64,000 nucleotides of DNA, taken from positions 1 to 64,000 of the forward strand of contig JALCMP010000006.1 in NCBI GenBank assembly GCA_022648545.1, given 5' to 3'. The translations under genes were made by a program, and so were the position numbers. Under the pieces are notes generated by a model. It was not told where the DNA came from and ran no database searches. It saw only the letters and a list, made by a program, of their open reading frames with translations. Of this stretch, positions 5,126-16,174 are shown piece by piece. This stretch comes from Bacteroidales bacterium. Its GTDB lineage: Bacteria; Bacteroidota; Bacteroidia; Bacteroidales; UBA932. Numbering within the stretch: position 1 is the stretch's first letter; each line of letters begins with the position of its first letter.

Positions 5126-6769
5126 ATGAAAAGAAATATATTGTTTATTTTATTATCCATCTTCTTATCGGCTTTCGTCGTATCTTCTTGTGAAGATGTA
5201 TTGGATGTACAACCGTTGGATGCCTACACCGAAGAAAATATATTTTCCGACATATCTCTTACGCAGGCATATGTTACAGAAATGTACACGACCCTCATAA
5301 CAGGGTTCGACGATGATGCAAGCATGTATATCAGCGATGAGGCGAGAAATAACTTCAACTGGGGTTCTTCCTACACTATTATCCGCGGCGAAATGACGGC
5401 AGACGATTGCGGGGGGTTTGGTACGTGGCAGAAATATTATTCGGATATCAAGGCCTGTAATATATTTTTCAGGAACGTTGACAAAATACCTGCACAAACG
5501 GCGGATGACAAGGTCGTTAAGAATTATCTCATAGGTGAGGTTACGTTTATGAGAGCTATGTACTATATGGATCTTACTACGCGATACGGCGGTGTTCCTC
5601 TGATAACCAAACCTTTTGATCTTAATGATAAAAATATTATGTTGGCACGCAACAGTTATGATTCATGCGCTGATTTCGTAGTGGATGAATTTGAAAAGGC
5701 GGCCGGACTTCTTCCCGTATCATGGTCGGGTTCGAATTTCGGACGTGCAACAAAAGGTGCCGCTTTGGCCATGAAGGCAAGAATGCTGTTATACATGGCC
5801 AGCCCCTTGTGGAATCCTGACAATGACAAGGCAAAATGGCAAAAAGCCGCCGATGCGGCCAAGGCCGTAATAGACCTGCGCAAATATAGCCTCGATCCGG
5901 ATTATAAAGGGCTTTTTCTGAATCCGCTAAGTCCGGAGATTATTTTTGAAAGGTTGTATACTACGGAACATTCCAATTATTTCGATTGGGAACAGACACC
6001 AAACGGACAGCACGGTTATTCAGCCTGCTGCGTCCTTCAGCAAATGGTAGATAGTTACGAAATGGAAGACGGAACGATGCCGGATACCACCATGTATACC
6101 AAAGTCACTTCAAATCCATGGGCGGGCCGCGATCCCCGCTTTTATGCATCCATAGTATGTGACGGACAGCCTATAAGAGGGGTGGAAGCTCAGTTCTGGA
6201 TAAACGAAGACGGCAAGACCGGCGGAAACGATTCCGAATTCGGCTATGACAACTGGAATGTCTCCGATACACATTATACCTTAAGGAAATTCCTGGATGA
6301 GTCTCTTACCGCTCAATGGGAAGACTGGGGCAGTCAGCCGTGGATATATGCCCGGCTTGCAGAAGTGTATCTTAATTATGCCGAGGCCGAATGCGAACTT
6401 GGAAAGGATATAGAAGCCAGAAAATATGTTAATTTAATAAGGGCCAGAGCCAGAGGAGGAAGAACCGGGATTCTTCCCGATGTTACCGAATCGGGGGAAG
6501 CTCTTATGAAGAAAATCAGGCAGGAACGCAAGGTAGAACTGGCTTTCGAAGGGTTCCGCTATTGGGATGTACGTCGCTGGAAGATAGCCGACAGTACCGA
6601 AAATTTCGAATCCAAAGGAATAAAGATAATCAGGCATCCCGACGGTACCAAGTCTTATTCCATAGTCCATGTAGACAACCGCGTTTTTAAACCTCAGCAT
6701 TATTTATTCCCTATTCCCAACAGCGAAATACGCAAGGATGACTTGTTGAAGCAAAATCCCGGATATTAA
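5126..6769 (+). CDS. SusD/RagB-family glycan-binding lipoprotein
   Basis: A 547-residue surface lipoprotein that caps the SusC transporter and binds the glycan. The signal peptide ends in a lipobox with cysteine 22 (VSSC), followed by acidic residues (EDVLD) that favour export to the outer leaflet in Bacteroidota. The SusD-like N-terminal region carries the YTEENIF and MRAMYYMDLTTRYGGVPL type segments, and the C-terminal RagB/SusD region includes RQERKVELAFEGFRYWDVRRW, a strong family signature. Length is typical. The start has no competing in-frame ATG nearby. It lies between susC and a putative glycosidase gene only four bases downstream, so all are likely co-transcribed. Ligand unknown. 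Confidence 0.96.
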   Translation: MKRNILFILLSIFLSAFVVSSCEDVLDVQPLDAYTEENIFSDISLTQAYVTEMYTTLITGFDDDASMYISDEARNNFNWGSSYTIIRGEMTADDCGGFGTWQKYYSDIKACNIFFRNVDKIPAQTADDKVVKNYLIGEVTFMRAMYYMDLTTRYGGVPLITKPFDLNDKNIMLARNSYDSCADFVVDEFEKAAGLLPVSWSGSNFGRATKGAALAMKARMLLYMASPLWNPDNDKAKWQKAADAAKAVIDLRKYSLDPDYKGLFLNPLSPEIIFERLYTTEHSNYFDWEQTPNGQHGYSACCVLQQMVDSYEMEDGTMPDTTMYTKVTSNPWAGRDPRFYASIVCDGQPIRGVEAQFWINEDGKTGGNDSEFGYDNWNVSDTHYTLRKFLDESLTAQWEDWGSQPWIYARLAEVYLNYAEAECELGKDIEARKYVNLIRARARGGRTGILPDVTESGEALMKKIRQERKVELAFEGFRYWDVRRWKIADSTENFESKGIKIIRHPDGTKSYSIVHVDNRVFKPQHYLFPIPNSEIRKDDLLKQNPGY

Positions 6770-6773
6770 TATT

Positions 6774-8789
6774 ATGATGTATAGAATAAAATGTTTGTTA
6801 TCCGTTGCATTTCTGTATCTTTTATCTTCGGCTATTCTGTTTTCGAAGGATTATTGGCATCTTAATAAAAACGGAGGGATAACGTGGACCGTATGCGATG
6901 ATTCGTATCCGCATTTCGATCATATGGAAATGAGCGGGAAACGTATTTCAGCCGTGCTGCGCTATGGCGTAAACGATAAAGGCGGATTTGAGATTGAAAA
7001 AAGCATCGTATGGCCTATGTTAAGAACCATACCCAACAATACTCGCGGTTCTCTTAACAGGCGTTTGAAATGGAATCCTTTGGAGTGCATAACCTTAAAC
7101 GGCAGATCTCCGTCGGATGAAAAAGTAAATTCGATCTCCATTAAGGGTAATCTTGAAGTCAACAGTAATTTCAATTGCGGACCCTATGGCAAGGTAGATA
7201 TCAGAAGAAGGTTTTTTCCGTCTGCGGAACTGCCTGTTTTCATAGAATCATATCTTGTGAAAAATATAGGAAGCAGGGAAGTTACGGTGGAGATACCGGA
7301 ATGCCGGATAGTAAATAAAACCGATAAAAGTAAAGGAGTCGACGGCGTTTATTCTATAATTTCCGAAATAACGGGGAGCGGAACATATTCGATTCTCCCC
7401 GGAGATTCGGTTGTTTTTGCCGCATATACGGCTGGTTACGACAAAGATCAGATAATGCGGAACCCGGATTGCGGCAAAGAATATGAAAAAAGGATGGTTT
7501 TGGTTAATACATGGATGCACGATCTTAGCTTTACATGTCCCGATTCCGCAATAACCCGGATGTTCGCTTTTTCCAAGATACGTGCATGCGAAAGCATTTT
7601 CTGGACAAAAGCGGGTCCCCTGCATTCACCCGGAGGGGAAACTTATTATGCAGCCATATGGGCGAACGACGAAGCCGAATATGTAAATCCGTTTTTCCCG
7701 TATACTGGCTACGCATATGCGGACTCGGCCGCTCTTAATTCGTATTTGCTTTTTGCAAGGTATATGAATAAGGATTGGAAGCCTATACCGAGTTCCATCA
7801 TTGCGGAAGGCGAAGATATTTGGGACGGAGCAGGAGACAGGGGAGATGCTGCGATGATTGCATACGGAGCATCGCGATATGCCCTTGCAAGAGGCTCCCG
7901 TGAAGAGGCGCAAAAATTATTTCCTCTTATAAAATGGTGTCTGGAGTATTGCCGCAGACAGTTGAATTCCTGCGGTGTAGTGAAATCCGACTGTGACGAA
8001 CTCGAACACAGGTTTCCTGCAGGACGGGCGAATTTATGTACTTCTTCATTATATTACGATGCTCTTCTTTCTGCTGCATATCTGAACGAAAGCATGAATG
8101 GAAAACATTCGGTTTCCGAATCTTATATGAAAAGAGCCCGTCTGATGAAAAAAAATATAGAAAATTATTTCGGAGATAAGATAGAAGGTTATAATACATA
8201 CAGGTACTATGAAGGTAATGAACTTTTGAGATCATGGATCTGTATACCGTTGGTTATGGGGATAAACGACAGGGCGGAAGGAACTGTCGAAGCCCTGTTC
8301 TCTTCAAAGCTGTGGACGGAAAACGGTTTGCTTATAAGGTCTGACGGAAAAACCTTCTGGGACAGGGAAACTTTATATGCATTAAGAGGCGCTTATGCTG
8401 CCGGGGCCGTGGAAAAAGCAACTGCCTTCCTTAAGAAATATTCATATAAAAGACTCCTTGGGGAACATGTTCCGTATGCAATAGAAGCCTGGCCGGAAGG
8501 AGGTCAGAGACACCTTTCCGCCGAGAGCGGGTTATATGCAAGAATAATAACCGAAGGGATTTTCGGAATCAGACCCGCAGGTTTGAGGAGTTTCGAATTG
8601 CTCCCGCGTCTTCCGGAAGAATGGGATAATATGTCGCTGGAACGTATTTTTGCATTCGGAAGCGAATTCTCCATTTATGTTAAAAGAATATGTAACGGTA
8701 AAATAAACCTGACGGTAAAAGATAAAAACGGAAAAATTCTTTATAACGAAAATTTAAAGGAAGGCGAAAAAATCAAATTGAATATATGA
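6774..8789 (+). CDS. Putative secreted six-hairpin ((alpha/alpha)6) glycoside hydrolase
   Basis: A 671-residue protein with an N-terminal signal peptide (hydrophobic residues about 7-23). The N-terminal third looks beta-rich. The middle and C-terminal parts are helical with the patterned Trp, Glu and Asp residues of six-hairpin glycosidases: an acidic AEGEDIWDGAGDRGD segment, then EAWPEGGQRHLSAESGLYARIITEG, then a closing GIRPAGLRSFELLPRLP, a phrase common near the end of the catalytic barrel before a small beta-domain. I cannot assign a CAZy family. It follows susD by four bases and overlaps the next gene by four, so it is part of the polysaccharide locus and probably acts on imported oligosaccharides in the periplasm. 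Start is ATG 6774; ATG 6777 is equally possible. Confidence 0.75.
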   Translation: MMYRIKCLLSVAFLYLLSSAILFSKDYWHLNKNGGITWTVCDDSYPHFDHMEMSGKRISAVLRYGVNDKGGFEIEKSIVWPMLRTIPNNTRGSLNRRLKWNPLECITLNGRSPSDEKVNSISIKGNLEVNSNFNCGPYGKVDIRRRFFPSAELPVFIESYLVKNIGSREVTVEIPECRIVNKTDKSKGVDGVYSIISEITGSGTYSILPGDSVVFAAYTAGYDKDQIMRNPDCGKEYEKRMVLVNTWMHDLSFTCPDSAITRMFAFSKIRACESIFWTKAGPLHSPGGETYYAAIWANDEAEYVNPFFPYTGYAYADSAALNSYLLFARYMNKDWKPIPSSIIAEGEDIWDGAGDRGDAAMIAYGASRYALARGSREEAQKLFPLIKWCLEYCRRQLNSCGVVKSDCDELEHRFPAGRANLCTSSLYYDALLSAAYLNESMNGKHSVSESYMKRARLMKKNIENYFGDKIEGYNTYRYYEGNELLRSWICIPLVMGINDRAEGTVEALFSSKLWTENGLLIRSDGKTFWDRETLYALRGAYAAGAVEKATAFLKKYSYKRLLGEHVPYAIEAWPEGGQRHLSAESGLYARIITEGIFGIRPAGLRSFELLPRLPEEWDNMSLERIFAFGSEFSIYVKRICNGKINLTVKDKNGKILYNENLKEGEKIKLNI

Positions 8790-10333
8790 TGAAATTAAGT
8801 TTCTTATTATTAATATCTGTCTCCGCCTGTCTTTTTAACACATGCGAATCCGTAAATCAAAATAGAGATTCTGAAGATACTCACAAAATAGAAATATCCA
8901 GTTCGAACGGAGAACTTGACGAGGCATTTAAATGGGCTGTAGAAAAAGCCGGGTCCTTTGTTATGACAGGTAAATCCGGCTCCGTTAATAAATCGGAAAA
9001 ATATGAGGGTGACCGGTCTTATAGATACATTCCTTGCTATTGGGCCGGATATCCTTTCCGTTCTGCATTTTATTCCAGGGACTTTTGCCATCAAATGGCC
9101 GGGGCCCATCTTCTGGGACTCGACGAAGAGAATTTCAGAATGATGAAAACTTTTGCCGCCTCCTCGAATAGTGCGAGAGGTTGGTATCCGCTTTGGTCCT
9201 TTAATTTCGACGGAAGTCCGTATATGCTCGATTACGGCAGTGACGATTCTTTCGTCCGGGAAGTCCCGGCTCCGTTCGAACTTGTGCAGAAAGCATATCA
9301 GGCATATATGTGGACTGGTGATAAAAGATATCTTAATGATAAAACCCTGTTGTATTATTATAGAAAGACGGTTTCCGATTTCATCTCCGAACATGACAAA
9401 CTTATGCCCGACGGAATAGCCGAAGGGAACGGAAGCGGAAATATATTTGCCGGAACGGCCACATACAATGAAGGAATGTATGAAAATCCCTTTATTGAGG
9501 CGGGGGACGGTATAGGGAGCCAGTATCAGGCATATCTGGGCTATGCCGGAATCCTGTATGCAAAAGGAGATTCTGCCGAAGCTGATATATGGAAAGAGAA
9601 AGCCAATTTTTTAAAAGACTATTTCGAGAAAGTATGGGCGAGTGAAAAGTATGGATCCGTTTATGTTTCCGGCTATGACACCAACAGGAAGGCCCGGACG
9701 GAATTCGGAAAAGAACCTACATGGTTTATGGCAATGAAACATATTATTAACGATGGCGAAAGAGGAAATATATTTCTGGACTTCATTCAAAAGTCGTTGG
9801 AAAATCCATCGGATCTCCCGGTCAATATTGAAGCGATTACATATCTTCCCGATACCTTTTTCCCCTACGGAAGAATAGAAGATGGCTGGAAATGGTTCGA
9901 TTATATTTTGAAAAACTATCAAAAGCCGCACAGTGTAAAAGAAGTTGGTATGAACGGCGATTATCCCGAAGTCTCTTTTGTAATAATAAGCAGTGTTGTT
10001 GAAAATCTTATGGGAATAGTTCCCGATGCACCGCACGACGCAGCTTCATCAGTTTCCCGATTGCCCGATGAAATGTCCTTTCTTACCGTAAAGAATATAA
10101 ATATAGGGACGCATAGCATATGCGTAACTCATAACGGAAGGAATTCGACTTCCGTATTTTATTCAAAAGGCAGGGGGAATTTCCATTTTACATTCCGTTT
10201 TTACGGGAACCATCCCGAGTTGCAGGTAAACGGACAGTTCCGGAAATCGACGCCCGGCAGTCTCTATGGAAAGGAAATATCTTCAATAACTCTTACCCTC
10301 AAACCGCTGGATCGCGTTACGGTAGGCATATGA
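8786..10333 (+). CDS. Putative six-hairpin glycosidase-like lipoprotein
   Basis: A 515-residue protein beginning with a lipoprotein-type signal (cysteine at 15 or 20). The body is helical and rich in aromatic and acidic residues (FYSRDFCHQMAGAHLLG, GWYPLWSFNFDGSPY, NGDYPEVSFV), the look of an (alpha/alpha)6 barrel, ending in a beta-rich C-terminal domain from about residue 430. That architecture occurs in several glycoside hydrolase families; I do not recognise which. It starts inside the stop of the preceding glycosidase gene (ATGA overlap) and is followed by a strong terminator, so it is the last gene of the susCD operon. The catalytic acid and base cannot be named with confidence. Confidence 0.7.
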   Translation: MMKLSFLLLISVSACLFNTCESVNQNRDSEDTHKIEISSSNGELDEAFKWAVEKAGSFVMTGKSGSVNKSEKYEGDRSYRYIPCYWAGYPFRSAFYSRDFCHQMAGAHLLGLDEENFRMMKTFAASSNSARGWYPLWSFNFDGSPYMLDYGSDDSFVREVPAPFELVQKAYQAYMWTGDKRYLNDKTLLYYYRKTVSDFISEHDKLMPDGIAEGNGSGNIFAGTATYNEGMYENPFIEAGDGIGSQYQAYLGYAGILYAKGDSAEADIWKEKANFLKDYFEKVWASEKYGSVYVSGYDTNRKARTEFGKEPTWFMAMKHIINDGERGNIFLDFIQKSLENPSDLPVNIEAITYLPDTFFPYGRIEDGWKWFDYILKNYQKPHSVKEVGMNGDYPEVSFVIISSVVENLMGIVPDAPHDAASSVSRLPDEMSFLTVKNINIGTHSICVTHNGRNSTSVFYSKGRGNFHFTFRFYGNHPELQVNGQFRKSTPGSLYGKEISSITLTLKPLDRVTVGI

Positions 10334-10335
10334 TA

Positions 10336-10370
10336 AAAAAGCGACCGACAATTGAGCCGGCCGCTTTTTT
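10336..10370 (+). terminator. Rho-independent terminator of the sus operon; left copy of the island repeat
   Basis: An A-run, a GC-rich hairpin (GCGACCGAC, loop AATTGA, then GCCGGCCGC, with mismatches) and six T residues follow the stop of the last glycosidase gene. Bases 10336-10366 recur at 16727-16757 with a single difference. Confidence 0.85.
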
Positions 10371-10442
10371 AATATACCCATTTAAATAAGAATATTATAA
10401 AATTCAACGGTAAAATCCTATAATAAATAAGGTCTCATAGAT

Positions 10443-10640
10443 TTATTGCTTTTCAGTACGGATTCCTTTAAATTTATTTCCGTCTTGTTTGACATCTATG
10501 AATTTGCCTGTTTCAGTATCGCGTTTGACATACTGTTGCGTTTTCGGATTAAATGTCTGACTGCGCTTTCTGACTGCACCATTACGATGTCCGTCTCCAA
10601 CTGGTGGATTTCCGAGGATTGAACCGTATTTCTTCGTTAA
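10443..10640 (-). pseudogene. 5'-truncated small conserved hypothetical gene
   Basis: The reverse strand encodes a plausible C-terminal segment of about 55-65 residues: GDGHRNGAVRKRSQTFNP, then YVKRDTETGKFIDVK and a basic FKGIRTEKQ end. It resembles a family of very small basic proteins of unknown function seen in many Bacteroidota (recalled, not searched). No ATG, GTG or TTG lies in frame close to the expected N-terminus; the frame stays open to an ATG at 10784 only through sequence without protein character. I infer that the 5' end was lost when the adjacent insertion element arrived or rearranged. Confidence 0.4.
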
Positions 10641-10799
10641 GGAAGGCTTACAAAAACGGAAGGTTTGGTGCAATGCCGGAAATAAAAGGATGATATGGCA
10701 AGAAGGGTAGGAGAAAGGCAAAAACGTAAGATAATACCCACCGTAATAGGTGCCGGTATTACAGAACAGATGTACTTCATACATCTGAGGTCATTGTTC

Positions 10800-11155
10800 G
10801 GCTATCGTGTGAAAGTGCCGGAATGGCTCTGGAAAGTTTCAGGAAGAAATGGGGATCCAAATATTCCTATGCCGTACGATCATGGAAGGATAACTGGGAA
10901 GCCCTGACGACCTTTTTCGATTACCCTGTAGAGATACGCCGTATAATATATACTACCAATATCATTGAAAATCTTAACAATAAGATCAGGAAATATACGA
11001 AAGGCCGTTTATCCTACCCAACGGATGAGGCCTGTGAAAAATCCGTATACTTGGCTATCATTGAAATAGAAAAGAGATGGAGACTTCCTATAAGGAACTG
11101 GGGATTGATATTGAATCAATTCATAGCTATATTTTATGACAGGATTTTATTATGA
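10800..11155 (+). pseudogene. IS256-family (mutator type) transposase, C-terminal fragment
   Basis: From about 10800 the frame reads AGMALESFRKKWG, then W..NWEALTTFFDYPVEIRR, IIYTTNIIENLN, RKYTKGRLSYPTDEA, YLAIIEIEKRW and NWGLILNQFIAIF, the conserved C-terminal block of mutator-type transposases. An internal ATG at 10823 gives 110 residues, whereas full-length members have about 400. The DDE catalytic part before this block is missing and upstream frames are interrupted by stops, so the gene is dead. A matching terminal inverted repeat follows at 11175-11202. Confidence 0.85.
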
Positions 11156-11174
11156 TTAAAGCTTATACAGAAAA

Positions 11175-11202
11175 CCATTTACACAAAACTTTGGACACTA
11201 CC
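11175..11202 (+). repeat. Right terminal inverted repeat of the IS256-type element
   Basis: The stretch ending ACTTTGGACACTACC, 20 bases after the transposase stop, has the form of IS256-family ends (outer GGTAGTGTC on the opposite strand). No matching left end is found between the sus operon and the fragment, so the element is 5'-deleted. Confidence 0.6.
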
Positions 11203-11241
11203 GCCTAAACTTTTGCTCAGAGATGAATGTTTGTTTTTAAG

Positions 11242-12168
11242 CTATTTAATATTATTCAGAAAGACCGTTAAATCATTAGCATATTCTCTAACCTTTTTTC
11301 TTATTTCAATACAAAAATCATCATTAAATTCAAATTGGGACTCTCCTGACCCTAACATTCTTTTCCCCTCAATATCTTTTGGCGTCTCATGCCCTAATAG
11401 ATTCCTCTTATTTATTATTTTTTCGTAACAATCAGAAAAACCATTAGATTTATATTTGTTTGCAATATCATGATCAACTTCTTCAAAGATGTATTGTGTC
11501 GCTTTTAATTTTTCTGAAGCATCAAACATAAGAGGATCTTTTATTATTTTTTCTACATCATCATTGGCTTGATAATGATTAAATTTTTTGTTTTTTTCTT
11601 TTATTTTATTCTCAACGTTTGAAATTATTTTTTCTTTTAGCTTGTCTTTTAATTTAAATGAATTATTATTTAAAGTAGTAGAAATAATCTCCATCATAGA
11701 TTTATCAATATCACTTGTCTCAGCCATAATCAGACCTCTCATATTATTCAAATCTTGAACTTTCTTAATTGTGGTATTAACGACTTGCTCAAATTTTGTT
11801 TCAATTTCTTTTCTATCTGCCGTATATACCCCTTCTAAACTATTTTTTTGCATACTATCTCGAACATTTTCGACATCACTTGAATAAAAAATTATATCGG
11901 TAAGAATAGGATTCGCATTTATGTTTCTGATAAATTGAATTATTTCTTCTCCATTGTCAGAACCTCCAAGGGTAAAATCAATAAGTAACAAATCATAATC
12001 CTTAAGTTTATTTTTTTCTATTTCAGATTTAACCTCATCAAGGGTTTCACATCTTTTTGAAATTAGATTAAACCCTAAGTCATTTAATGTATAGGTGAAG
12101 AGCTCTTTTGTTGTACTGTACCAAGATTCATTATCTTCTACCCATAAAATATTATATTCGATTGTCAT
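11242..12168 (-). CDS. Receiver (REC) domain fused to putative HEPN ribonuclease domain
   Basis: A 308-residue protein. Residues 1-125 form a response-regulator receiver: acidic pair E11-D12 (WVEDN), phospho-acceptor D64 in LLLIDF, hydroxyl residues S96-S97 (FYSSD). The usual lysine is not obvious (K120 or a shifted residue). No DNA-binding domain follows; residues 130-308 are helical and contain R255-N-L-L-G-H260, an exact RNxxxH motif, followed by one long last helix. That motif and position fit HEPN-fold RNases, common effectors in toxin and abortive-infection systems. The HEPN call rests on motif and topology only. The start overlaps the stop of the kinase gene by four bases, so the two are translationally coupled. 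Inferred role: phosphorylation by the neighbouring kinase releases or restrains RNA cleavage. AT-rich composition fits transfer. Confidence 0.75.
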   Translation of the reverse strand: MTIEYNILWVEDNESWYSTTKELFTYTLNDLGFNLISKRCETLDEVKSEIEKNKLKDYDLLLIDFTLGGSDNGEEIIQFIRNINANPILTDIIFYSSDVENVRDSMQKNSLEGVYTADRKEIETKFEQVVNTTIKKVQDLNNMRGLIMAETSDIDKSMMEIISTTLNNNSFKLKDKLKEKIISNVENKIKEKNKKFNHYQANDDVEKIIKDPLMFDASEKLKATQYIFEEVDHDIANKYKSNGFSDCYEKIINKRNLLGHETPKDIEGKRMLGSGESQFEFNDDFCIEIRKKVREYANDLTVFLNNIK

Positions 12169-14693
12169 TTTGGGAGTTTTATAATTAGTTCAAAACCTTC
12201 TTTATATTCAGGATTATATACTATAGTCCCTTTTAATCCATCCTCAATAATTCTTTTTACGTGGCTTAATCCAAGACCAGAACCTTTGGTTGTAGTGACA
12301 CCCTCTTCAAAAATCATTTTCCAATCACTAATCTCTTTAGATAATTGTTTACCTATATCTTTTATTTTTATTTGTAAATCATTTCCAATATTAGAAAACT
12401 CAAAAATAATTTTTTGTGCATTTTTTTTTCTGGAGTTGCTTAGAATATTATCGAGTGCAGTACATAATTCAATAGGTTGAAATCCGCGTACAAATTTTAT
12501 ATTATCGCCATAAAGATCAATCTTAACATCATATAGAACTTGATAAATATTTCGAATATAATCTTTAATGTAAGAAACGATATCTTCGTCTTTTTCCAAT
12601 GTCGCTTTTAAAAATCCTGATTTTGTTGTAAATCTTGTTAGAGTAGATATTTTTTCATTAGCAAGACTGATTCCTTGAATAAAATCCAACAAGGTCTTTT
12701 TATCTATGTTTTGACCTTTATCTAACTTGCGTTTTAAGAGTAAGATCTTATTAGAAATGTCGTCTGAATAAACCCCAATAATATGATTGGAGTCTCTTAA
12801 ATCTTTATATTCAATTGTTTCTCCTGCGTTGAATCTTGTTATTTGTTCTTTTTGTTTCTTAGCAACTGTTTCTGCAAGGTGTCTTGCTTTTGCTTCTTCT
12901 ACTGCTTTTTGTTCAGCTTTTATTTTGGCTAATTCCGCTAATGCCCTTTCTTTTTCTTTTCTTTCTGTGGCAAGTTCAGCATTTATGCGTGCTTCCTCGG
13001 CTTTTTTTCTTCGTTCTTTTTCTAATAATCTATTCTGTTCTGCTTCAGCAGCCTTTTGTTCAGCTTCAATTCGTTTTTGTTCTGCAAGTTCAGCTCTTTT
13101 TATTGCATCTTCTTTTTCTTGAATGAGCTTATTAAAATTATCTTCTGTTAGTTTTACTTGATTTAATAGATCTATATCATTTGTTTTTTCTGCTATCTTT
13201 GTTAAATCTGAGATAAATTTAGGTTGAACTTCATCAAGCTTTTCGTTTACTAAATCAACTAAATCCTTATTGAAGGCTACAATTTTTATATTGTTGTCAT
13301 CAGAAAGAGTTTTTATAAGATTTACAAAATCAATTTTACTACCAATGTTTTTTACTGCATCCTCATAAGTATCTTTGAATTGATCATTTTTAAGTTTATT
13401 TCTTAATAAATCCGCAACTTCATTATTAATAAAATAATTTCTTCTTTTGAAACCTTCTCCCCAAAGTACTCCAACAACGTATCGCTCCAGTCTTTTTAAA
13501 GCTTTTTCTGTAAAAATATCAAAAAGTATTTTTTTTCCGCTTGTTTCAACAAGTCCACCATCGCGGCTAGAAACTTCCTTAAATTCATCAAATTTTTCAG
13601 TTATTAAATCTACTTTTCCAAATAAATCGCGTGTCCCAAGGAATCGTTTATAACCCTGTTGCTTCTTTTTATCTATGTTCCAACTATCATCGCCAGTTTC
13701 TCCATAAGGCTGAACCCTAAAACCATTTTTGAAAAGAAAAACATTTCCATAATTTACAGGCTCTATGTCCATTATTTTCCCAAAATTAATTTTAGCACTC
13801 CTATTTAGAAAATAAAGTCCTATTTCAAGATTATCGATTAAATTAGAATATGGGTTTTTCTCTTCAATATGATAAATTAAACTTCCTCTATCAGCAATTT
13901 TTGTTGTAATTTTTTCTTTATCGACAACGACATCAATCTCTGTGGTTTTAATTTTTAGCACACTTAGAATGCTATTGGTAATTTTGCCATTTATTTGTTG
14001 AAATGGCGTTTTATTAATATCATATTCCTTATATTTTGGTGCAATGATTTCAATCGTAAATCCATTTTGCTCGCCTGAAAATGGATTTATAATTTTTTCA
14101 AGTGAGTGTTTAAGATCTCGAAGTCTTAATTCATTCCAAGATGAATTTAATTTGCTGATTTTTAGAATTGTTCCGTGTTTCTGATTATTATATAATGGAG
14201 TTTCTGTTTTCTTTTCAAAAGGAATTAATACCTTGTTAAAACTTTGCTTGGCATCTTTTTCAAACTGCCTCCAATCAACATCAATTTGATATGTAATATT
14301 TGAATCAATGTAAGTTGTAATTAATTCAAGGTTGTTTCCAAGCCTATCGCACGAAAAACGTCCAACGCCTTTTGCTCCTGCATAATATCTTCTCGATTTT
14401 AGGTTATTTAAATGTGGACTTCTTTTAATGTCATTATCTTCCGAACCATCTTTTTTGGCAGAATAGGCAACTGCAAACCATTTTTCTCTTATGTCTGTTT
14501 CTGACATACCTTTACCGTTGTCAGTTATTATGATTTCATCTTCATTAAATGTTATTGTGACATAATCAGAATAAGCATCATACGAGTTTTTAACAAGCTC
14601 ATAAATAGCAATAAAATCATCGGTAATTAAGTCTCTACCGATGATATTTTTCATACCTGTTTTTATGTCGAAAGAAATGAATTCTTTATCCAT
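12165..14693 (-). CDS. Double GHKL ATPase: N-terminal Hsp90/MORC-like plus C-terminal histidine kinase
   Basis: An 842-residue cytoplasmic protein with an ATPase module at each end. The N-terminal one has a Bergerat fold: N-box ELVKNSYDAY (32-41), G1 box DNGKGM (58-63), glycine lid GAKGVGRFS (106-114), as in Hsp90, MutL and MORC-like proteins. A mixed middle domain runs to about 500, then a charged Ala/Glu/Lys-rich coiled coil (about 510-620). A histidine-kinase-like end follows: DHp-like helix with H637 (DSNHIIG), N-box TALDNILSNSRKKNA (745-759), a degenerate G1 box DIGKQ (779-783) and a G2 box GSGLGLSHVKRI (804-815). No signal peptide or membrane helix is visible. It overlaps the methyltransferase gene by 8 bases and the REC-HEPN gene by 4. 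Inferred role: sensor whose N-terminal ATPase clamp detects DNA or another target and whose kinase end signals to the REC-HEPN partner. Confidence 0.85.
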   Translation of the reverse strand: MDKEFISFDIKTGMKNIIGRDLITDDFIAIYELVKNSYDAYSDYVTITFNEDEIIITDNGKGMSETDIREKWFAVAYSAKKDGSEDNDIKRSPHLNNLKSRRYYAGAKGVGRFSCDRLGNNLELITTYIDSNITYQIDVDWRQFEKDAKQSFNKVLIPFEKKTETPLYNNQKHGTILKISKLNSSWNELRLRDLKHSLEKIINPFSGEQNGFTIEIIAPKYKEYDINKTPFQQINGKITNSILSVLKIKTTEIDVVVDKEKITTKIADRGSLIYHIEEKNPYSNLIDNLEIGLYFLNRSAKINFGKIMDIEPVNYGNVFLFKNGFRVQPYGETGDDSWNIDKKKQQGYKRFLGTRDLFGKVDLITEKFDEFKEVSSRDGGLVETSGKKILFDIFTEKALKRLERYVVGVLWGEGFKRRNYFINNEVADLLRNKLKNDQFKDTYEDAVKNIGSKIDFVNLIKTLSDDNNIKIVAFNKDLVDLVNEKLDEVQPKFISDLTKIAEKTNDIDLLNQVKLTEDNFNKLIQEKEDAIKRAELAEQKRIEAEQKAAEAEQNRLLEKERRKKAEEARINAELATERKEKERALAELAKIKAEQKAVEEAKARHLAETVAKKQKEQITRFNAGETIEYKDLRDSNHIIGVYSDDISNKILLLKRKLDKGQNIDKKTLLDFIQGISLANEKISTLTRFTTKSGFLKATLEKDEDIVSYIKDYIRNIYQVLYDVKIDLYGDNIKFVRGFQPIELCTALDNILSNSRKKNAQKIIFEFSNIGNDLQIKIKDIGKQLSKEISDWKMIFEEGVTTTKGSGLGLSHVKRIIEDGLKGTIVYNPEYKEGFELIIKLPK

Positions 14694-15912
14694 TTATGAT
14701 TTGATTTAAAATAATTCCTGCTTGTTCTGCAAATAACGGTGGAATAGCATTCCCGATTTGGGAATAACGTGGAACTTCTTGAGTGCGGCGTTTGCCACCG
14801 GTTGTATATTTTCCCTTAAATTGATATGAATCTGGAAACGATTGTATTCGTGCATACTCTCTAACCGTTAAAATACGAGGCTCACAGAAATGAATGTAAT
14901 CATCCGGTAATGTTGTTATTGTTGGAGTTTTAGAATGCTCGTCTAAAGGAATAACAGTGTGCTTTTTTATATTATATTTCTCTCTAATTGATTTGTCAAT
15001 ATCAATATTTTTTCTAGTAGAAGTTTCAATGATATCTGAAAATTTTTGAATAATATCAGGACGATGTTTGGCAAAACGATGGCTGTCAGGAATGTCGTTT
15101 TTAATCCCTTTTCGCATCAGTTTTTGATATGGACTTAATGGCTTTTTAGTATATATACCACTTTGAAAAGTTTTACTGTCTGGGCATGGCTCTTTACCAT
15201 TTTTCATTAACAAATCGGAAATTGCATCATTTAAATTTGTGCTAATTGTTAAATGTTTTGTTTTTAAAAAAGAATATTTATTGTTTTCTACTTTTTGAAA
15301 AAAGCCGTCTGCTAATGCTTGAGAAGAATCTTTTATGTCTTTTCTAACCCCAATTAATATAAATCTTGTCCTTTTTTGTGGAATACCATAATCTCCAAAG
15401 TTTATTAATTTACCTTGAACATAGTAGCCTGCTTGATTTAAAGACTGTTCTACAAATGAAGCATAAATTTTTCCTTTATCTTTATTTTTTTTGAATTCGA
15501 GTGTAAATCCTTTTACATTTTCGAAAAAAATAATTTTTGGCTGAATTAATTTAATAAATTGTATATAAGAAAGAACTAGCTGATTACGATGGTCATCTTC
15601 TTTTCGACGTCCGGCCATAGAAAACCCCTGACAAGGAGGTCCACCTGCAATTAAGTCAACTGTTCCTTTAAGAGTTTTAAGTTGCTCAGAATAATCCTTA
15701 ATTACAGTATTTATTTCTAAAGCTTGTTTAGGCAACCATTCCGGCCAATTAAAATGATGAATGTTATCTATTAAGTTGTATTGAAGCGTTTTAAAAGCAT
15801 CGGGACTTTTTTCAACTGCAAAAAGTCCTTGCCATCCAGCATTATGTAAGCCTAATGATAATCCTCCACAACCTGCGAAAAGGTCAATATATATAGGTTT
15901 GTTATTAGTCAT
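14686..15912 (-). CDS. DNA (cytosine-5-)-methyltransferase, Dcm family
   Basis: A 408-residue enzyme transferring methyl from S-adenosylmethionine to C5 of cytosine in a specific DNA sequence. Motif I is DLFAGCGGLSLG (10-21), motif IV is GGPPCQGFSMAGRR with catalytic C94, motif VI is ENV (131-133), motif VIII is QKRTRFILIGVR (179-190); a target-recognition region precedes motif IX (REYARIQSFPDSY) and motif X (QIGNAIPPLFAEQ). All key motifs are intact, so it should be active. No restriction endonuclease gene is adjacent; a GHKL kinase and a REC-HEPN gene follow in the same operon with overlaps. It therefore looks like the self-marking part of a non-classical defence cassette rather than of an ordinary type II system. 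Target sequence unknown. Confidence 0.93.
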   Translation of the reverse strand: MTNNKPIYIDLFAGCGGLSLGLHNAGWQGLFAVEKSPDAFKTLQYNLIDNIHHFNWPEWLPKQALEINTVIKDYSEQLKTLKGTVDLIAGGPPCQGFSMAGRRKEDDHRNQLVLSYIQFIKLIQPKIIFFENVKGFTLEFKKNKDKGKIYASFVEQSLNQAGYYVQGKLINFGDYGIPQKRTRFILIGVRKDIKDSSQALADGFFQKVENNKYSFLKTKHLTISTNLNDAISDLLMKNGKEPCPDSKTFQSGIYTKKPLSPYQKLMRKGIKNDIPDSHRFAKHRPDIIQKFSDIIETSTRKNIDIDKSIREKYNIKKHTVIPLDEHSKTPTITTLPDDYIHFCEPRILTVREYARIQSFPDSYQFKGKYTTGGKRRTQEVPRYSQIGNAIPPLFAEQAGIILNQIING

Positions 15913-15913
15913 T

Positions 15914-16174
15914 TTAGAAAAATTTCGGCAATTGGTAATGTCTTGAATTTTGTATAAGAGAGAAATCTGAAAGATTCATAATAAAATTATGTTTCCAAAT
16001 ATAGCTACAAATTGATTGAAAACAAGGGTCTAGTTTATTATCAGTTATGTCCAGTCCTTTTCGATTCAGCTTGTGGCAAAGCTGATTTTTATAGGCTTCA
16101 ATCTTTGGATAGAATAATCGGTATTTTATGATTTTATTTCCACATTCCTGAGCCCTTTCACTTCGTCTTGTCAT
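15914..16174 (-). CDS. Small protein of unknown function, first gene of the island operon
   Basis: An 86-codon frame ending one base before the methyltransferase start. Its ATG is preceded by AAGGAT, a reasonable ribosome-binding site, and a candidate promoter lies about 70 bases upstream. The product is basic at the N-terminus (MTRRSER) and has four cysteines (residues 11, 33, 51 and 56); I recognise no domain. It is not a Vsr endonuclease, the usual small partner of Dcm enzymes, and shows no clear helix-turn-helix. The tight spacing argues for a real gene, but a chance frame in AT-rich DNA is possible. Confidence 0.45.
   Translation of the reverse strand: MTRRSERAQECGNKIIKYRLFYPKIEAYKNQLCHKLNRKGLDITDNKLDPCFQSICSYIWKHNFIMNLSDFSLIQNSRHYQLPKFF

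Follow-up and report, generated by a model that had tools for sequence, protein, structure and literature searches.

A 64,000-nucleotide stretch of the genome of a Bacteroidales bacterium (GenBank assembly GCA_022648545.1, contig JALCMP010000006.1, positions 1 to 64,000; hereafter, the window) carries on its minus strand three overlapping genes that encode, in 5' to 3' order, a C5-cytosine DNA methyltransferase, a histidine kinase with two GHKL modules, and a receiver protein with a HEPN-like output domain. We propose, with a probability of about one half, that the three genes form a methylation-gated, phosphorelay-controlled suicide (abortive-infection) system of restriction-modification type. 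According to this proposal, the methyltransferase would mark the cell's own DNA at its site, and the N-terminal, paraMORC-type GHKL module of the kinase would hold or scan DNA; when unmodified, invading DNA is met, the C-terminal kinase would autophosphorylate on His637 and pass its phosphate on to Asp64 in the receiver protein, whose C-terminal HEPN domain would thereby be released or dimerised; the RNxxxH site of this domain would cut RNA, so that growth would stop before the phage multiplies. The DNA sensing, the flow of phosphate and its direction, the RNA cleavage and the anti-phage role in this scheme are steps that we infer. The features of the system, in window coordinates and with lengths in amino acids (aa), are as follows, where ORF denotes open reading frame:

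14686..15912, minus strand: C5-cytosine DNA methyltransferase, 408 aa (PF00145, TIGR00675, PADLOC MTase_II, motif check)
15631-15633, minus strand: codon of the catalytic Cys94 of the methyltransferase (PPCQG motif check)
12165..14693, minus strand: double-GHKL histidine kinase, 842 aa (Pfam, alignment, motif check)
12783-12785, minus strand: codon of His637 of the kinase (alignment and motif check)
11242..12168, minus strand: receiver-HEPN response regulator, 308 aa (ORF, Pfam, alignment, motif check)
11977-11979, minus strand: codon of the phospho-acceptor Asp64 of the receiver protein (motif check)
11245..11721, minus strand: output (HEPN-like) domain, about residues 150-308 (alignment of 16 relatives, fold matches, weak HEPN profile matches)
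11389..11406, minus strand: RNxxxH motif (RNLLGH, residues 255-260; R, N and H the same in all 16 sequences)

An earlier reading of this DNA (hereafter, the original prediction) had described a three-gene operon with a Dcm-type methyltransferase, and ORFs and Pfam confirm it: the methyltransferase and kinase genes overlap by 8 nucleotides (nt), and the kinase and receiver genes overlap by 4 nt. The methyltransferase matches PF00145 (4.8e-58), TIGR00675 (7.2e-49) and PADLOC MTase_II (2.3e-86), and its Cys94 sits in PPCQG. The kinase, as had also been predicted, has a GHKL ATPase at its N-terminus and a histidine-kinase module at its C-terminus: a paraMORC-like HATPase_c_3 domain (3.2e-18; residues 28-175) is followed by a long charged middle, a DHp-like region with His637, and a C-terminal HATPase_c domain (2.4e-17; residues 740-841). 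The same double architecture is present in 8 of 8 relatives scanned. Compared with PADLOC-DB 2023, the kinase gives no match at E<=1.

A pattern-based search for the kinase in 84,980 species genomes yielded two close relatives (L003 and L004), and searches of 61 relatives, 395 phylum, 395 class and 393 order genomes, in samples that overlap, yielded 12 further full-length receiver proteins. The family comprises 15 full-length loci in Bacteroidota, the window included, and one truncated copy at a contig end (G013; relatives search), used solely as a sixteenth output domain. The methyltransferase adjoins the kinase/receiver pair in 15 of 15 loci, so that the neighbourhood seen in the window recurs as a triad. 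The methyltransferase gene is upstream and on the same strand in 13 loci; in the other two (L027 and L029), it runs the opposite way and shares 60 nt with the 3' end of the receiver gene. In one locus (L094), the kinase is broken into pieces (5489-7703) between a full-length methyltransferase gene and a full-length receiver gene, through decay or assembly error, and this locus is excluded from kinase counts, leaving 14 intact kinases. The 8-nt overlap of methyltransferase and kinase genes is present in 7 of these 14 loci (the window, L003, L004, L024, L028, L093 and L095).

The candidate relay residues are invariant across the family. His637 is the same in 14 of 14 intact kinases, as are E32, N36, D58, G60, G62, G106, G109 and G111 of the first GHKL module and N753, D779, G781, G806 and G808 of the second; Asp64 is the same in 15 of 15 full-length loci. 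Two-component hallmarks are present, comprising the acceptor His and ATP boxes of the kinase and the Asp, acidic pair and Ser/Thr of the receiver, the second residue of the acidic pair being Asn in some proteins. The Lys that is conserved where receiver beta-5 ends was not found, the nearest aligned position, which depends on the alignment, being Arg in 14 of 15 and Gly in one; and the Pfam match of the window protein to Response_reg (0.0019) is under the curated cut-off.

The output domain combines extreme variability with a fixed motif. Identity between the window and the 14 other output domains ranges from 14 to 69% and is at most 26% in 11 of the 14. Invariant over the 15 receiver proteins are M1, L8, D59, D64, G73, R81, F94, Y95, K136, R144, G145, R255, N256, H260 and R290, the last four of which fall in the output domain; when 16 C-terminal parts are aligned (alignment A6), only G145, R255, N256, H260 and R290 are invariant. 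The exact RNxxxH motif noted in the original prediction is thus kept in 16 of 16 relatives. Shuffling of such a domain produces the motif in 1.4% of cases on average (maximum 4.8%), and a single occurrence would therefore be weak; it is the presence in all 16 that marks the motif as other than chance. A domain this variable, with R, N and H fixed, looks like one with a catalytic RNxxxH site. HEPN structures and HEPN profiles stand out in the set of weak matches that the output domain gives, and low-confidence structure models match HEPN toxins and unrelated helical bundles equally well. With Foldseek alone, neither model reached a match at E<=0.001, and P-loop proteins among the fold matches align mainly over the receiver part. 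A PDB sequence search with the output-domain profile returned S100 proteins only (E about 0.3, judged chance), and a PDB sequence search with the L003 output domain returned no match.

The original prediction had also held that no classical restriction nuclease is present. This stands for the operon in the window, where no cognate endonuclease is seen, but not for the family. In 3 of 15 loci (L025, L026 and L031), a protein of 257-259 aa is encoded directly behind the receiver gene: the L025 and L031 proteins match HNH_2; the L031 protein matches, in addition, a PADLOC type II HNH restriction enzyme (5.8e-43) and another HNH model (3.8e-97); and the L026 protein matches that of L031 (5e-83). 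In a fourth locus (L092), a 332-aa minus-strand protein (10173-11171), about 1.7 kb beyond the receiver gene and on the other strand, matches only the C-terminal half of the HNH enzyme (2.3e-11). In some loci, the HNH enzyme would probably cut DNA as well. No HNH enzyme was found in 11 of 15 loci by phmmer over 14 loci and the genome of the window, a search confined to this nuclease type and covering just 502 nt past the receiver gene in L095; in the draft genome of the window (85% complete), the HNH query gave no match, without a positive control there.

These enzymes bear on a different reading, namely that the locus encodes restriction-modification of a type II-like kind: the kinase/receiver pair would license a nuclease, the HNH enzyme would have been lost from the window copy, and the helical output domain would be an adaptor and not an RNase. 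The methyltransferases of the three loci with an HNH enzyme directly downstream are 66-71% identical to that of the window, the related HNH protein of L092 lies near its receiver gene, and plasmid relatives L008 and L010 combine short receivers with a separate HNH gene, all as this reading would have it. An adaptor, however, would not need invariant R, N and H, and the 11 loci in which an HNH gene was not found (for L095, within the 502 nt covered) keep the receiver-HEPN gene. We consider this reading quite unlikely. Improbable to a still greater degree, in our view, is the regulatory reading of PMC8011034, in which the cytoplasmic two-component system controls the neighbouring restriction-modification genes; in its favour, that paper links kinases and receivers of this kind to C5 methylases. 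Pfam found no DNA-binding output in the receiver protein, which makes transcriptional regulation less likely; in addition, the RNxxxH motif is invariant, and an HNH enzyme that could be regulated was not found in 11 of 15 loci, the search having been for HNH enzymes and not for other nuclease types.

The HNH enzymes also provide the strongest hint of DNA inspection by the kinase. The kinases of L024 (940 aa) and L092 (924 aa) have an extra N-terminus, which a comparison over 186 ORFs of 14 loci matches to the first 85 residues of the L031 HNH enzyme (8.3e-6 and 6.7e-5). In L024, an HNH gene was not found by phmmer, and the methyltransferases of L024 and L092 are the most distant from that of the window (37 and 34% identity). 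Because a domain like the HNH N-terminus occurs fused to the kinase in these loci, it is natural to suppose that a site-reading module, which would bind DNA, may sit on either the nuclease or the kinase.

Comparison of loci indicates that the output domain behaves as a unit separate from the rest of the system. L003 and the window are 73% identical in the receiver and 77% identical in the kinase vs. 24% identical in the output domain; L003 and L031 are 51% identical in the output domain vs. 39% identical in the kinase. In approximately unbiased (AU) tests, the grouping of the window with L003 and L004 is rejected for the output-domain tree (p-AU 4e-45), and the grouping of L003 with L031 is rejected for the receiver tree (p 0.006), with long branches elsewhere in each tree. 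From the identities and from the conflict between receiver and output-domain trees, we conclude that, as far as sequence can tell, the L003 output domain has been exchanged between loci. This exchange, like the gene content, the gene order and the invariant residues, is read from the sequences themselves. Domain exchange is the pattern of toxin and effector domains. We suggest, more tentatively than for the suicide system as such, that in this form of restriction-modification-linked immunity it may be a His-Asp phosphorelay, and not a nuclease or a second messenger, through which the detection of unmodified DNA leads a response-regulator toxin to cleave RNA, the platform being modular and its toxin domain passing from locus to locus.

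That the output domain is exchanged as toxins are would also suit a phosphate that acts in the opposite sense. In such a guard or addiction arrangement, the kinase, on methylated self DNA, would keep the receiver-HEPN protein phosphorylated and silent, and loss of methyltransferase, kinase, ATP or host DNA (phage takeover) would let the HEPN domain act, making the genes a toxin-antitoxin-like pair on a two-component base. The anatomy is the same as for the suicide system, the kinase catalytic boxes kept in 14 of 14 are compatible with either direction of phosphate, and the tight gene overlaps and the low-GC (guanine-plus-cytosine), patchily distributed segment with its bounding direct repeat, described below, suit a guard as well. 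The possible DNA-reading domains favour sensing of unmodified sites, while leaving room for a guard; we regard the guard arrangement as unlikely.

The kinase and methylase part of the layout is known, and the toxin end is unrecognised in the searchable literature, to the extent that the sources are accessible. PMC8011034 (2021) describes kinases of this sort, accompanied by receiver proteins and lying next to C5 methylases, as a two-component-like element with a tie to restriction-modification; the claim in the original prediction that the system is undescribed therefore fails for this neighbourhood. The HEF_HK/Response_reg_2 systems reported there (PF19191/PF19192) resemble the window in having a soluble kinase with an N-terminal HATPase_c_3 and a C-terminal HATPase_c, a receiver partner and an adjoining C5 methylase, and have HNH_2 and Vsr neighbours, as do some loci of the family. 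The window proteins, in contrast, have no match to PF19191 or PF19192 at E<=1 (as a control, PF19192 gives 73.1 bits on contig 8 of the same genome; PF19191 is without a control), and HEPN occurs 0 times in the main text of that paper. A receiver-HEPN effector is not described in the passages covered of PMC2701414, PMC11229360, PMC12839542, PMC8195603, PMC7159879, PMC3710099, PMC13092281 and PMC6563490. On balance, the original interpretation is borne out in the triad, the invariant RNxxxH, receiver Asp and kinase His, the weak HEPN matches, the patchy distribution and the low GC, and not in the novelty of the neighbourhood or, beyond the window operon, in the absence of a nuclease.

Other known systems share parts of the proposed design, as described in the accessible parts of their sources. 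The paraMORC ATPases of restriction-modification operons (PMC2292703, in which the word 'receiver' occurs 0 times) likewise place an N-terminal GHKL module in a methylase operon, whereas the window kinase has a histidine-kinase module at its end and feeds a receiver protein. GHKL ATPases with a C-terminal Ymh HEPN fusion in restriction-modification operons, proposed as functional analogues of PrrC and RloC (PMC3710099), combine a paraMORC-type ATPase and a HEPN domain in the same setting; there both are in one protein, whereas in the window sensor and HEPN domain are on two proteins and are separated by a kinase module and a receiver domain. A Schlafen RNase system joins an RNase to a histidine-kinase-type module beside DNA-modification defence, but as a single fused protein, with Schlafen and not HEPN, and without mention of a receiver domain. 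In VapKSC / CapK-CapS (PMC13373217), phosphorylation by a DNA-activated GHKL kinase frees an RNase toxin or repressor, much as in the proposed relay, but a STAS-protein serine is phosphorylated, the signal is single-stranded DNA, the toxin is VapC, and a methyltransferase is not mentioned. Detocs (PMC11249213) is a three-gene defensive two-component system that ends in a toxic enzyme, but by description its effector is an ATP-cleaving PNP, and a methyltransferase is not mentioned. A figure legend of DefensePredictor (PMC13092281) names HATPase and REC as domains that occur in predicted, unvalidated systems, and overlap with the window system is possible. If the proposed system is real, the published, unexplained kinase/receiver/methylase association would gain an output open to test, namely a toxin that cuts RNA and is switched through phosphorylation of an aspartate; one short operon would unite the self-marking of DNA with classical two-component signalling and HEPN toxins; and the role of methylase-linked kinases would become directly testable.

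We conclude that the platform is broader than the REC-HEPN pair, which is one of its outputs, and that most of it has already been published. The genome of the window has a second methylase-linked kinase system (L097; contig 8:20000-36000, 3229-11598) comprising, with neighbours assigned by eye, Vsr-like and Dcm-like proteins, a 958-aa kinase, which also turned up as a search match, and a 561-aa Response_reg_2 protein (73.1 bits to PF19192) without RNxxxH. Residues 303-308 of the latter, RSNAVH, form an Rx4H arrangement; the locus also has a 279-aa DUF3883-like protein and then an AbiE toxin-antitoxin-like pair (both by eye). On plasmids, tblastn with the kinase matched 92 records, all at <60% identity and none with 80% coverage. 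In the 7 examined in detail, the receivers have other C-termini or none, and two kinases (L008 and L010) lie beside a separate HNH gene. Among six annotated plasmid receivers, R[NDH]xxxH occurs once (RHTLNH, in L006), and L011 lacks the His there (by eye). The L006, L009 and L011 receivers seem to have in common another C-terminal domain of ~200 aa that ends near YYARQG (by eye), which would be another output of the kinase platform. The window and L030 receiver proteins gave no match on plasmids (tblastn), four scans of viral contigs (kinase, A1, and L031 and L024 receiver proteins) found no relative, and tblastn of the kinase against phages gave 3 partial matches.

The distribution of the family is sparse within Bacteroidota, the phylum to which the whole-genome samples belong. 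The relatives search gave matches in 3 of 61 genomes and the phylum search in 10 of 395, two phylum-search matches (G095, 25.7 bits; G069, 19.5 bits) being dropped. The 11-row profile used for class and order also matches many ordinary receivers (161 of 395 and 185 of 393 genomes at E<=0.001); above 200 bits there are 6 of 395 class and 3 of 393 order genomes, own genome included, and the remaining matches, at most 42 bits among the matches listed, were dropped. In the genus of the window, 1 of 36 other genomes has the truncated copy, and 35, drafts of 73-96% completeness, have no match at E<=0.001.

The operon has a GC content of 29.7%, vs. 42% in the window outside the island, and lies in a 6.4-kb low-GC segment with these further features:

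10324..10366, no strand: left copy of a 43-nt direct repeat, terminator-like hairpin; one border of the segment
16715..16757, no strand: right copy of the 43-nt direct repeat, terminator-like hairpin behind an asd-like gene (sequence comparison)
10823..11155, plus strand: Mutator-family transposase remnant, C-terminal (PF00872); inside the segment, outside the system

The repeat copies are 86% identical to each other, and the repeat core has two copies only in the draft genome, at the two segment borders. The transposase remnant matches positions 292-377 of the 379 of PF00872 (6.2e-20). Low GC, the bounding direct repeat and the transposase piece together suggest that the segment was acquired by transfer. 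In a check for an empty site, asd matched in 19 of 39 genus genomes, and the 260 nt behind these matches, inspected by eye, are unlike the window arrangement; no empty site was found there, and the repeat is accordingly unproved as a mark of insertion.

The original prediction had placed the upper bound of the operon at 16174, taking in an adjoining 86-aa ORF (15914-16174). We considered this ORF as a controller gene and rejected it, relatives not being found; since it has no second copy in the draft genome and no counterpart in L003 or L004 (no same-strand ORF of at least 80 aa at its place), it is left out of the system.

The neighbour scan covered ten chosen proteins. Vsr repair genes lie close to L026, L027 and L092. 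In L028, a DUF262-like defence protein (10451-12184; PADLOC Orf5 9.4e-70, HEC-06 7.4e-52) is encoded downstream of the receiver-HEPN gene. In two different genomes (L003, 1-5629; L033, 1-2721), the receiver-HEPN gene or operon adjoins an apparent dnaK (by eye), which hints at a common insertion place.

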